Position numbers and translations under genes: made by a program
Notes under the pieces: generated by a model
The model's database searches: none
Seen by the model: only the letters and a program-made list of their open reading frames with translations
What the model was told of the DNA's origin: nothing
NCBI GenBank assembly: GCA_016780775.1
Contig: JADHLI010000002.1
Coordinates: forward strand, 62,001-126,000
Reading direction: 5' to 3'
Origin: Alphaproteobacteria bacterium
GTDB taxonomy: Bacteria; Pseudomonadota; Alphaproteobacteria; Puniceispirillales; Puniceispirillaceae
DNA: 64,000 nucleotides
Shown here: positions 13,422 through 62,952 of the stretch, piece by piece
Layout: every line of letters starts with the position of its first letter
Position numbering within the stretch: the first letter of the stretch is position 1

Positions 13422-15002
13422 TTAGGCAAAGCGCAGATAATCTGCCCGTACAATCTGGGGCAAGTCGCGAATCGCACCAAGCGTCTCTTTATCTACTGAG
13501 CCATCTATTTCCACTAAGGCTACGGCTTCGCCTCCGGCTTCCTTGCGCCCTAGATGGAAGCTCGCAATGTTCAAGTTCAGCTCGCCCATCAGCATACCAA
13601 GCGTACCAATAAAGCCCGGTTTATCATAATTGCGCAAATACAGCATATTTTGCGGGAAATCAGACTCGATAGAAATACCCTGCACTTCTACCAAGCGCGG
13701 CATATCCCCGCCCACCAACGTGCCAGAGATTGTGCGCTCACCAGAACCAAAGCTGACAGTAAGGCGCAGCAAAGTTTCATAATCACAGCGGCGGTCATGG
13801 CGGACGGTTGCAACCGCAATTCCGTTCGAGGAAGCTACGCTTGCTGCATTCACCATATTTACAGAATCCATCTTCACGCCTAATAATCCAGCCAGCATAG
13901 AGGCCAGCACTGGCTGTTCATTCAATAACGCCGCACGCCCATCAAATTCCAGCTTAATGGTGTTCAGGTCAGGCAGATCTGTCTGGCCTAAGAACCGGCC
14001 AAGAAGCGAGGCAAGCGTCATATAAGGCTTCAAGATGGGCGCTTCTTCGGCTGTAACAGAAGCCATATTAATGGCGTTTGTTACCGCCCCTGTGGTCAGG
14101 TAATCAGCCATCTGTTCTGCTACCTGCAAGGCCACCTTCTCCTGTGCTTCTAGTGTACTTGCCCCTAGATGCGGCGTCGCAATAAAATTTTCGGCCTCAA
14201 AAAGCGGGTTATCTTTGGCTGGCTCTACCTCAAATACATCCAGAGCTGCCCCAGCTACATGGCCAGAGTTCAACGCGGCAAGCAAGGCAAGCTCATCAAC
14301 CAGACCACCGCGCGCGCAATTAACAATGCGCACACCCTTTTTCATCTTGTTCAGGGCGTCAGCAGAAATGATGTTGCGGGTAGAATCAGTCAGCGGTGTA
14401 TGCAAGCTGATAAAATCAGCACGCGCTAACAGCTCATCCAATTCAACCTTTTCAATGCCTAGGGTTTTAGCACGCTCTTCGGTCAGGAAGGGATCATATC
14501 CCATCACCTTCATCTTCAGGCCTTGGGCCCGTTCAGCAACAATCGCTCCGATATTGCCGCAGCCGATAATACCTAGCCGCTTGCCCGTAATCTCCGTGCC
14601 CATAAATTTGGATTTTTCCCACTTACTCGCTGTGGTCGATGCATGGGCTTGCGGGATTTGTCGTGCCAGCGCCAACAGCATAGAAATCGCATGTTCTGCT
14701 GTGGTAACCGCATTGCCGAAAGGCGTATTCATAACCACCACACCTGCATCCGTAGCAGCTGCCAAATCGACGTTATCAACACCGATACCAGCGCGGCCAA
14801 CTACCTTTAACTTATCTGCTTTAGCTAGTAATTCTGGTGTTACTTTCGTTGCTGAACGGATGGCCAGACCATCATAATCACCAATTATTTCAGCAATTTC
14901 TTCTGCGCTCAAACCAGGTTTAAAATCTACCTCGATACCTGCCTCAACAAAGATATCAACCGCTTCCGTCGCCAGTTTATCGCTTATCAGTACTTTCGTC
15001 AT
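13422..15002 (-). CDS. serA: D-3-phosphoglycerate dehydrogenase
   Basis: SerA oxidises 3-phosphoglycerate to 3-phosphohydroxypyruvate, the first step of serine synthesis. At 526 aa it is the long form. It has the catalytic domain with the NAD-binding motif GKRLGIIGCGNIGAIVAERA, the Arg in VNCARGGLVDE, and the His in TPHLGASTLEAQEKVA. An intervening ASB-like domain follows, then a C-terminal ACT domain (NMLYLRNYDKPGFIGTLGML) that usually binds serine for feedback. The start ATG has AAGGAAG upstream. It follows serC by 11 bp and is surely co-transcribed from the serC promoter. Confidence 0.96.
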   Translation of the reverse strand: MTKVLISDKLATEAVDIFVEAGIEVDFKPGLSAEEIAEIIGDYDGLAIRSATKVTPELLAKADKLKVVGRAGIGVDNVDLAAATDAGVVVMNTPFGNAVTTAEHAISMLLALARQIPQAHASTTASKWEKSKFMGTEITGKRLGIIGCGNIGAIVAERAQGLKMKVMGYDPFLTEERAKTLGIEKVELDELLARADFISLHTPLTDSTRNIISADALNKMKKGVRIVNCARGGLVDELALLAALNSGHVAGAALDVFEVEPAKDNPLFEAENFIATPHLGASTLEAQEKVALQVAEQMADYLTTGAVTNAINMASVTAEEAPILKPYMTLASLLGRFLGQTDLPDLNTIKLEFDGRAALLNEQPVLASMLAGLLGVKMDSVNMVNAASVASSNGIAVATVRHDRRCDYETLLRLTVSFGSGERTISGTLVGGDMPRLVEVQGISIESDFPQNMLYLRNYDKPGFIGTLGMLMGELNLNIASFHLGRKEAGGEAVALVEIDGSVDKETLGAIRDLPQIVRADYLRFA

Positions 15003-15013
15003 TTTCGTCTTCC

Positions 15014-16171
15014 TTAAATCTTTAACTCAGCGCGCACTTCATTAAATGCCCAATCTAACCAAGGCATGAGTGCTGCCATATCGCTTGCCTCCACAGTCGG
15101 CCCGCCCCAAACGCGCAATCCAGGTGGGGCTGTGCGATACCCGCCAATATCAAAAGCGACACCAGCGCCGGCTAGCTTTGTAGTTATGGCTTTGGCAAAG
15201 GCAGATTGCTCTTCTGCTGGCAGTGCCCGAACCGCCGCATCGCTAATCTTCAGGCAGATGGAGGTGGAAGAGAGATTGGCAAGATCAGAGCAAAGAAAAT
15301 CACACCAAGGCGCATTTTCAACAAAATCACGCACAGCTTGCAGATTAGCCTGCGAGCGCGCAATCAGGCCGTCCAGCCCACCAACATTATCAGCCCAATT
15401 TAAGGCAGAGAGTAAATCTTCAACACATAACATTGAAGGGGTGTTGATCGTATCACCGCGAAAAATCCCTTCAATAAGCTTACCGCCCTTAGTAAGCTGA
15501 AAAATTTTCGGCATAGGCCAAGGCGGTGTGTAGCTTTCTAGGCGTTCTATTGCACGTGGAGATAAAACAATCACGCCATGTGCCGCTTCACCGCCCAGCG
15601 ATTTCTGCCAGCTAAAGGTTGTGATATCCAGCTTTTGCCAATCCATTTCCATGGCAAAACAGGCAGAGGTGGCATCCGCTATGGTCAGACCTTTCCGGTC
15701 ACTAGCTATCCAGTTTGTATCAGGTACCCGCACACCAGAAGTAGTGCCGTTAAAGGTAAAAAGAATATCGCGGTCTGCATCTGTGGCATTCAGATCAGGC
15801 AGCTCACCCCAATCCGCCTCAAGGATGCGACAATCTTCTAATTTCAGTTGCTTTGTTGCGTCCCCGACCCATGTTTTGCCAAAAGATTCCCAAGCCAGCA
15901 CATCAACGCCTCTAGCGCCAAGGACAGACCACATTGCCATCTCTACCGCCCCTGTGTCAGAGGCTGGCACGATGCCTAAACGGTAATCAGACGGCAGTCC
16001 AAGCATTTCGGACATCCGGTCTATCGCTTCTGTGATTTTTGCTTTGGGTTCTTTTGCACGATGAGAGCGGCCTGTTTCAGCCCCCTCAAGTTGGGCAGGG
16101 GTCCACATGGGGTGCTTTTTGGTTGGCCCGGATGAAAAATGCGGACAAACCGGCTTACGCGTCGGCGTCAT
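15014..16171 (-). CDS. serC: Phosphoserine aminotransferase (alphaproteobacterial type)
   Basis: SerC converts phosphohydroxypyruvate and glutamate to phosphoserine using pyridoxal phosphate. The 385-aa protein belongs to the divergent subfamily known from alphaproteobacteria and Methanosarcina. It has [14 protein letters not shown] at the start, [16 protein letters not shown], and the PLP-lysine segment [21 protein letters not shown] take the ATG at 16171 because GAGG sits just upstream, a leader RNA leads straight into it, and the family N-terminus begins here. The frame is open for 18 more codons upstream, but these cover the leader hairpin. serA follows 11 bp downstream. Confidence 0.95.
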
Positions 16172-16221
16172 GGTGAACCTCGTCAGTGATTTTGCCTTCC
16201 GTTGGGGGAAGACGACCCACC
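16172..16221 (-). ncRNA. serC-type leader RNA (5' UTR of serC-serA)
   Basis: The whole 5' UTR can fold on itself. Transcribed from minus, GGUGGGUC (16221-16214) pairs over 8 bp, with wobbles, to GGUUCACC (16179-16172), which touches the start codon and covers part of the ribosome binding site. Inside, CUUCC (16211-16207) and GGAAG (16200-16196) form a 5-bp hairpin with a 6-nt loop. Position, size and the GAGGUUCACCAUG end agree with the serC leader described for Rhizobiales. That element's mechanism is not known to me; blocking of translation initiation is an inference from the pairing. Confidence 0.72.
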
Positions 16222-16225
16222 GCAA

Positions 16226-16253
16226 AAGATAGTCACCTGAAAACCAATGTCAA
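16226..16253 (-). promoter_or_regulatory. Sigma-70 promoter of serC-serA
   Basis: On the minus strand a perfect -35, TTGACA (16253-16248), is followed after 16 bp by a good -10, TATCTT (16231-16226). The predicted start of transcription, about 16219-16221, coincides with the first paired base of the serC leader. This agreement supports both calls. Confidence 0.8.
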
Positions 16254-17754: not shown

Positions 17755-18273
17755 TTATAGGCAGGAAGTAGGCTTACTGTCCAGCATATCAGGCAACCGA
17801 TTGGGCTGGCGTTCTGGCGATTGGTCGGCAGCAGGCAAATATGCTTCTAGCTTGGCTCGAAACCGCTCTTTTAGACGCGAGGTAGGAATTTCCTGAAGCA
17901 ATGTAGCAGAGGCCAATTTATCAATCGAACTAGCGGCGGTAAGGTTTGTTAACACCTTAATTTCAGCAACCACAAAACCCGCTAATTCTTTATCTGAGCG
18001 TGGTTGATAATGGCTGGCTATCATATCTAACAGCTCAGACCTGTCCTTATCTAGCGGCGCAAAAATCGGCGCATTGCCAATGGTTGGCGTTTCTATTGTA
18101 TGAAGAACTAACCGCCCATCTTGGCCACCATAGATGATGCCATCAAATAAGGGCGTGCCAAACATCACCAAATGCCAGCCTTGTGCAATAAAAGCCAGAT
18201 AATCAGCTCTATTTTCACTATAATTTTTAAATGTCAGATGATCTCGAACTCTGTGAAGTGGCAAGACAGGCAT
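17755..18273 (-). CDS. Hypothetical protein between folP and glmM
   Basis: I do not recognise this protein. From the ATG at 18273 (GGA eight bases upstream) it has 172 aa; an upstream ATG at 18297 would add eight. It has no signal peptide or membrane helix. The N-terminal half is beta-rich and aromatic (AFIAQGWHLVMFGTPLFDGIIYGG); the rest is mostly helical with SRLKERFRAKLEAYL. The last 25 residues are polar and Pro-rich. It splits the usually adjacent folP and glmM genes and is followed by a terminator. Codon usage looks like that of its neighbours. Confidence 0.65.
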   Translation of the reverse strand: MPVLPLHRVRDHLTFKNYSENRADYLAFIAQGWHLVMFGTPLFDGIIYGGQDGRLVLHTIETPTIGNAPIFAPLDKDRSELLDMIASHYQPRSDKELAGFVVAEIKVLTNLTAASSIDKLASATLLQEIPTSRLKERFRAKLEAYLPAADQSPERQPNRLPDMLDSKPTSCL

Positions 18274-18498
18274 GGTTTTTATCCAAATTGAGCGCAACTC
18301 AATAGCTTAGACATTACGTTTGAAAAGAAATAACTATGGCCAAGTTTTAAGTATAGCTATTAGACCTTTAGCTTAAACAAAAGCAATCTTAATTTAAACC
18401 GCTTTCATTAGAGAATTTAGAGTGTTAAGCCTTTAAAATAGACATTTCAGGCGACTATCTTACCCATTTTGTGTATAATCTGGATCAACGCTGCCCCC

Positions 18499-34411: not shown

Positions 34412-34576
34412 AAAAAGTGACAGCCAGGACAGCCGTTGGATGTTTTCATCCTCTGTGGCCTGTTAGACAGGTGGGCGCCGCAATAGCAAAATCGCAACTT
34501 TGCCAGTGGTAGCTCCCGACAGAAGATTATGGCCCCAGGGATCGAAATACCGAGCGCGAAGCCCAGCTATCACCTC
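34412..34576 (-). ncRNA. ssrS: 6S RNA
   Basis: 6S RNA binds sigma-70 RNA polymerase and mimics an open promoter. The minus-strand transcript has a 12-bp closing helix, GUGAUAGCUGGG (34573-34562) with CCUGGCUGUCAC (34428-34417), followed by a U-run. Inside are the typical alphaproteobacterial pieces GAUCCCUGGGGCC and GGGAGCUACC on the 5' side and GCCCACCUG on the 3' side, framing the central bubble. Length (about 160 nt) and position between zapA and 5-FCL agree with the conserved synteny. A plausible promoter upstream is TTGAAA, 17 bp, TAGCTT, near the zapA stop. Confidence 0.88.
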
Positions 34577-62875: not shown

Positions 62876-62952
62876 TGGTGGGCCCGGCAGGACTCGAACC
62901 TGCAACAACACGGTTATGAGCCGTGGGTTCTAACCAATTGAACTACAGGCCC
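62876..62952 (-). tRNA. tRNA with CAU anticodon, probably tRNA-Ile2 (CAU)
   Basis: The 77-nt minus-strand gene folds as a full cloverleaf: acceptor GGGCCTG / CGGGCCC, D-arm GTTC / GAAC, anticodon stem CACGG / CCGTG with loop CTCATAA, T-arm GCAGG / CCTGC, and an encoded CCA. A CAU anticodon means elongator Met, initiator Met or lysidine-modified Ile2. C4-G69 and C5-G68 in the acceptor stem match the TilS determinants of tRNA-Ile2 and differ from E. coli elongator tRNA-Met. I therefore prefer Ile2. The D-stem GTTC/GAAC replaces the common GCTC/GAGC. Confidence 0.93.

Follow-up and report, generated by a model that had tools for sequence, protein, structure and literature searches.

What do the first bases of the serC messenger pair with in a SAR116-cluster bacterium, and is the RNA that precedes the gene a serC leader at all? 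The question is raised by an element on the minus strand of the window (the whole stretch of DNA that was analyzed, 64,000 nucleotides), which occupies the stretch from the end of glmM to the serC start (AUG at 16171-16169), with serA following serC after a gap of 11 nt. A first-pass annotation had described a serC leader that folds its own ribosome binding site away, by means of an 8-bp closing helix between the transcript's first bases and the stretch that ends at the AUG. It gave no strand; all the sequence parts that it named are present, and they lie on the minus strand, where the order is TTGACA, 16 nt, TATCTT, 4 nt, GGUGGGUC, the hairpin GUCUUCC-CCCAAC-GGAAGGC, the AAAAUCACUGAC tail, GAGG, UUCACC and AUG (Table 1).

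Table 1. Features of the serC leader region and the genes behind it, in window coordinates.
Feature	Position	Strand	Basis
-35 hexamer TTGACA	16248..16253	-	sequence; distance to GGG conserved
-10 hexamer TATCTT	16226..16231	-	sequence; 16-nt spacer to -35
GGUGGGUC, 5' arm of the previously proposed closing helix	16221-16214	-	sequence
5' arm UGGG, proposed pseudoknot strand	16216..16219	-	homology: the two inner G never vary, the outer one covaries with the third loop base
Linker UC, 2 nt, pseudoknot loop L1	16214..16215	-	GGG-to-CCC spacing
P1 hairpin, 7 bp, CCCAAC hexaloop	16194..16213	-	covariation; sub-threshold RF00517 match
CUUCC / GGAAG arms of P1	16211-16207 / 16200-16196	-	sequence
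Loop CCC, proposed partner of GGG 16218-16216	16204..16206	-	relatives
Tail AAAAUCACUGAC	16182..16193	-	position of the short-form ACA(U) box; AAAU here
Shine-Dalgarno GAGG	16178..16181	-	sequence; 12 nt downstream of P1
GGUUCACC, possible partner of GGUGGGUC	16172..16179	-	fold; covariation support not clear
serC, phosphoserine transaminase	15014..16171	-	TIGR01365 serC_2, 575.2 bits, cut-off 448.2
serA, phosphoglycerate dehydrogenase	13422..15002	-	TIGR01327, 647.3 bits, cut-off 454

The serC leader is Rfam family RF00517, introduced as an orphan riboswitch candidate (Corbino et al., 2005, PMC1273637) and called a long-standing orphan in the accessible part of a 2020 review. According to the accessible part of the 2005 paper, the Agrobacterium RNA bound neither serine, threonine nor B6 vitamers, and a protein was suggested instead. 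At its gathering threshold, RF00517 has no match in the window. At a relaxed threshold it matches 16222-16187 of the minus strand with 24.8 bits (E 0.0012), against a cut-off of 35. The alignment comprises the 5' CGGUGGG and the hairpin with CCCCAACG, the core of the published family, and leaves most of the second-stem stretch without a counterpart. As in the family, the element stands directly before serC-serA with an abutting promoter (the start site being a predicted one), it has the hairpin P1 with its CCCAAC loop and the 5' GGUGGG, and the 5' GGG is complementary to the loop CCC, a pairing whose covariation is found in relatives. Unlike the family, it lacks the second stem with a GNRA loop that sequesters the ribosome binding site, as judged by both the alignment to the RF00517 model and the consensus fold of the order. 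P1 has 7 bp with a 2-nt linker here and 6 bp with a 3-nt linker in RF00517, and short forms mostly have a tail box ACAU, which reads AAAU in the window. On this comparison the window element is a short, divergent version of the serC leader, known in kind and new in form. The earlier identification was thus right in seeing a relative of the serC leader, with an abutting promoter, before serine-synthesis genes and with an unknown signal, and the covariance search proposed along with it does lead to the correct place, at a score under the cut-off. Relaxed matches to HIV_FE and CRISPR-DR10 were far under their cut-offs and were taken as chance. A glycine riboswitch has also been reported before serC in metagenomes (accessible part of PMC2211319); Rfam matches neither a glycine riboswitch nor a T-box in the leader, and at the gathering threshold the window contains only a tRNA and a 6S RNA.

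SerC is encoded in 112 of the 136 genomes of the window's order, and the DNA upstream of serC was examined in 73 of these 112 (47 of 52 in f1, the window's family, the other five being truncated; 12 of 12 in f2, 3 of 3 in f3 and 11 of 45 in f4). A hairpin with a CCCAAC-type loop, searched for by its loop pattern with the misses read by eye, is present in 68 of the 73 leaders; a truncated contig (L021), a degenerate leader (L047) and all three members of f3 are without it. L047, from the SAR116 family, has lost both GGG and CCC; its 5' UGUC could pair with a loop GACA, a single case that may be chance. RF00517 itself matches at E <=0.1 in 14 of 61 genomes (the window's own and 60 relatives), in six of them over the cut-off. 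Genus f2g15 has full leaders with a second stem before serC, above the cut-off at 62.8-70.3 bits in six genomes, and genus f2g16 has intermediates before serC, at 33.3, 28.5 and 19.0 bits. Short forms are found in f1 and in the AT-rich f4.

A covariance model of the order's leaders matched in 30 of 386 genomes of the class, five from the window's family and 25 from outside the order, and all 30 matches are directly upstream of serC, with serA next. RF00517 matched in 118 of the 386, in 114 of them above the cut-off. The named carriers include Hyphomicrobiales, Aliiroseovarius, Parvibaculum, Pseudokordiimonas, Niveispirillum and Magnetovibrio, among others, so the family is not confined to Rhizobiales, and the rarity outside that group implied at first is not borne out. 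The core pattern recovered 63 of 80 named loci; three more were recognized otherwise (two with AGG:CCU, one with an imperfect P1), and two of the rest are truncated. Of 60 SerC-bearing genomes of the class without an RF00517 match, drawn from the portion of such genomes that was listed, 9 still have the core, four of the nine being short forms (L145, L155, L165, L178). Sorted automatically, 216 distinct leaders fall into 159 with and 57 without a stem containing the ribosome binding site. The division is rough: seven leaders of the order (six in f1, one in f4) were assigned a stem against the alignment, and no fewer than two of the 57 (L084, L337) resemble long forms whose stem is imperfect. 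Of the 57 short forms, 43 have an ACA in the 8 nt that follow P1, vs 11 of the 159 long forms. Short forms exist outside the order too, for example in Nisaea (L212). Eight loci from records labelled Cyanobacteria, Acidobacteria or Verrucomicrobia (L206, L218, L222, L229, L233, L238, L270, L271) have a SerC close to the alphaproteobacterial one and no recognizable leader; either the gene was transferred without its RNA, or these are mislabelled MAGs.

The consensus fold of the order is P1 alone. Among 52 distinct leaders, 98.1% of the P1 cells are paired and two-sided changes occur at 7 of 7 pairs, strong support for the inner CUUCC/GGAAG hairpin already drawn in the first-pass annotation. The GGG upstream of P1 and the CCC in its loop are invariant in all 68 leaders of the order, hence they do not covary within it, and their spacing is nearly constant (9 nt in 65 leaders, 8 nt in three). 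The U beside GGG is an optional extension, forming U-A in 36, U-G in one and no pair in 15 of 52 rows. The covariation lies in homologous serC leaders, from which the pairing in the window would follow by homology. AGG occurs together with the loop CCU in Devosia psychrophila (L239) and in a MAG of Ahrensia (L248). Within Devosiaceae, RF00517 matches at E <=0.1 in 79 of 91 sampled genomes, and 70 leaders (the 30 best and 40 lower-scoring ones of the 79, L239 being extra) divide into 34 with GGG:CCC, 36 with AGG:CCU and none with a mixture. In the family of the Ahrensia MAG, RF00517 matches in 57 of 61 genomes and all 30 other leaders examined have GGG:CCC, so the change in Ahrensia is probably a separate one. 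Throughout, no serC-proximal leader with an NGG arm and a CCN loop combines GGG with CCU or AGG with CCC.

A count was made over 39 rows, which deliberately include all 13 A-U cores next to 24 random G-C cores, one C-G core and the window. In 14 of these rows both partners of the outer pair have changed, and no row leaves it unpaired; the two inner pairs show no variation in the counted sets. These counts are of sequences, not of events: the Devosiaceae A-U change may be a single event, and we infer that A-U arose at least twice independently, besides the changes inside Kordiimonadaceae. Dropped from the proximal rows were T-T and C-A cores that seem to be hairpins in coding sequence (L387, L390, L391, L027) and three T-C rows, which are leaders with 8-nt spacing read at 9; among upstream copies, C-C and T-C rows were dropped as repeats of the same sequences in an incorrect spacing. 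L418, an A-U row with 8-nt spacing, belongs to the upstream copies and was counted with them. A loose core scan mixed in coding sequence and was excluded from the counts. A DNA search of 366 class genomes with a Devosia leader and serC start met no recognizable Devosiaceae and brought 20 loci into the core scans. The AGG:CCU leaders (L456-L491 and L239 from Devosiaceae, L248 from Ahrensia) are natural compensatory variants.

Kordiimonadaceae (L211, L217, L395-L421) have tandem serC leaders, with a second RF00517 match (E <=0.1) directly upstream of the first in 22 of 29 genomes. The upstream copies back the pairing only in part: by distinct cores, their outer pair is C-G in four, G-C in three, U-A in two and A-U in one, with a C-A mismatch in four; by genome, 15 of 24 are complementary and 9 of 24 have the C-A mismatch; and of 13 copies with 8-nt spacing, nine pair and four do not. 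The upstream copy keeps P1 and a stem with an SD-like AAGG or GAGG without a serC start behind it, which suggests that the second stem could belong to the sensor, beyond its role as a lid on the ribosome binding site. A leader peptide in the tandem copies was considered and rejected, as the few rows read by eye share no frame.

The resulting geometry (a linker of 2-3 nt, a P1 of 6-7 bp, no spacer, and AAC leading back to P1) fits the known loop limits of a classical H-type pseudoknot. The preQ1-I and SAM-II riboswitches, as commonly summarized, are likewise tiny 5' elements made of a hairpin and a pseudoknot shortly before a gene; their topology and genes are different, and in the window the ribosome site lies outside the pseudoknot. 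The GGG:CCC pseudoknot may already have been shown by Greenlee (2018). Among the openly available papers searched, no title or displayed abstract mentions a serC pseudoknot, tandem serC leaders or SAR116 serC leaders.

Where transcription begins bears on both uses of the 5' bases. The promoter matches the consensus at 10 of 12 positions, and 0.5 such sites are expected in shuffles of the 701-base region; on its own, this match is weak evidence. Of the order's 68 leaders, 61 have TTGAC 34-37 nt upstream of GGG, as does none of 68 control stretches further upstream, and the seven leaders without it at that distance all come from one genus group, f2. This conserved distance would put the start at GGG or no more than about 2 nt from it, probably nearer 16219-16216 than 16221. 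The promoter is therefore real and tied to the hairpin by conserved spacing; the part of the earlier claim that becomes less likely is a start at the first base of the closing helix, 16221, and the outer two bases of that helix may be untranscribed.

The closing helix itself can be drawn in the window with eight pairs, three of them G-U. For the exact piece of 53 nt it has the lowest energy of all folds, but 49 of 200 shuffled sequences are as stable, and in three longer pieces that extend into the codons another pairing wins. That alternative, CGGUGG/UCACUG, was also rejected, with 57.6% of cells paired vs a shuffled mean of 55.8%, the native figure being reached by 86 of 500 shuffles. In the order alignment, whose helix register is imperfect for some genera, the closing helix has 64.9% of cells paired (shuffles 62.0%, with 4 of 500 reaching the native figure), 22 two-sided cells vs 15.6 (44 of 500 as high), two-sided pairs at 4 vs 4.2, and a covariation score of 0.285 that two of 500 shuffles reach. 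Slid versions of the helix have 34-57% of cells paired and scores of at most 0.162, but up to 29 two-sided cells. In a strict 8-pair register, 47 leaders with GAGG form 5.40 of 8 pairs with their native tails vs 5.23 with tails from other genera, a mean that 15 of 2000 permutations reach by a statistic that ignores relatedness. All eight pairs form in the window and seven relatives (L012, L016, L018, L019, L022, L023, L058), and some double changes are genuine: U-A has become C-G in L019, and G-C has become A-U in L016 and L023.

Is this helix then the OFF fold, with the 5' end closed on the ribosome binding site up to the AUG until a signal opens it? The double changes, the permutation result and the covariation score, higher than in all slid versions, speak for such a model. 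Against it, the helix is impossible in most of the family and order, its outer pairs are broken in four of six leaders of the window's own genus, and two-sided pairs are no more frequent than in shuffles. In the subclade that allows the helix, the three variable pairs form at 2.06 of 3 natively vs 2.11 when swapped between genera, and 12,555 of 20,000 permutations (17 distinct combinations) are as good. Arm-tail duplexes average -5.74 natively vs -5.54 swapped across the family, with the native one better in 26 of 45, and in the window's subclade swapped duplexes are the stronger (-4.84 native vs -5.21). Nor is the ribosome site more hidden than in tail-shuffled controls, its pairing across the family being 0.50 vs 0.56, with the native value higher in 15 of 45. 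With outer bases that may not even be transcribed, we consider this model improbable. The search for compensatory changes among relatives, suggested with the original proposal, thus returned a few double changes and variable pairs that do no better than genus-swapped ones; the 8-bp helix can be drawn without clear covariation support, and its standing as a conserved device for hiding the ribosome binding site is not supported. The closing helix is possible, with a few two-sided changes, and not demonstrated; as a use of the same 5' bases, the pseudoknot is, by comparison among relatives, the better supported.

Together, our data suggest, at somewhat better than even odds, that the window contains a short-form serC leader with a GGG:CCC H-type pseudoknot, a putative signal-responsive control of serC-serA. 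Transcription would start at or beside GGG 16218-16216, and the first bases would fold back, with GGG meeting the CCC of the P1 loop to form a compact H-type pseudoknot (2-nt linker, 7-bp P1, no spacer, AAC). In long-form leaders, a second stem beside this core holds the ribosome binding site; the window's leader lacks it. A metabolite or a protein that reports serine or one-carbon status could recognize the pseudoknot and tail, and this recognition would set the translation of serC-serA. As GGG is needed by both the pseudoknot and the closing helix, the two are mutually exclusive in the window's subclade. A switch is conceivable in which the formed pseudoknot leaves the ribosome site free, and an open pseudoknot allows GGUGGGUC to close on GGUUCACC. 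It would be the simplest testable scheme, with good evolutionary support for its pseudoknot half only; what argues for the ON/OFF step is geometry alone, the closing helix not being conserved. Comparison supports the identity of the leader, P1 and the family's pseudoknot pairing, and the signal, the direction of control, the mechanism and translational control as such are presumed. What speaks against the pseudoknot reading is the score under the cut-off, the absence of one published defining stem, the invariance of GGG and CCC within the order, the C-A mismatches in Kordiimonadaceae, the lost core in L047, AAAU in place of ACAU, and the negative binding results of 2005 for the Agrobacterium RNA.

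Several other readings share part of this evidence. The most serious is a protein that recognizes the GGG/CCCAAC hairpin at the mRNA's 5' end and acts on translation or decay, with no small-molecule aptamer involved. The accessible part of PMC1273637 proposes a protein for the long-form leader and reports no ligand found. The element is small, and short forms have lost the stem with the ribosome binding site yet keep P1, GGG and mostly the tail box. Covariation of the outer pair favours pairing over a read-out of letters, and a protein that binds the pseudoknot would still be compatible with it. We regard a protein as possible, at clearly less than even odds. It is rather unlikely that the short forms are a separate orphan riboswitch subclass, in which a pseudoknot of about 30 nt with an ACA tail senses the serine-pathway signal unaided by the stem with the ribosome binding site and the Kordiimonadaceae tandems are cooperative two-aptamer versions; were this so, they would be among the smallest aptamers known.

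The short form could also be a remnant, which lost its expression platform along with P2 and regulates no more. The missing stem, a ribosome site that is not specially hidden and the loss of the core in L047 are consistent with this idea; that three families of the order, AT-rich genomes included, have all retained P1, GGG, CCCAAC and the spacing to the promoter argues against it and makes a remnant quite doubtful. Finally, a G run at the start site could be reiterated when a nucleotide is scarce, as in the slippage known from B. subtilis pyrG, with the extra G pairing with the C-rich loop. GGG does stand at the expected +1. However, the G run is interrupted by AGG in Devosiaceae and Ahrensia and by UGG or CGG in copies from Kordiimonadaceae, with the pairing mostly kept, and the second tandem copy is away from the 5' end, leaving slippage with hardly any likelihood.

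The putative pseudoknot in the window's leader has practical consequences. Backed by compensatory changes in relatives, it shows which 5' end the RNA would need in binding tests, and nature offers variants for the hunt for a ligand or protein: the AGG:CCU leader of Devosia, the small version of SAR116 and the two-copy version of Kordiimonadaceae. With its own cut-off applied, the present Rfam model does not pick up the short form in the window.

Elsewhere on the minus strand of the window, a frame of 180 aa (17755-18297) between the dihydropteroate synthase and glmM genes has no match in NCBIfam. A 6S RNA at 34417-34572 scores 47.2 bits, barely over its cut-off of 46.4, and a tRNA gene at 62879-62952 (69.4 bits) has CAU at the anticodon position, as read by eye from the alignment.
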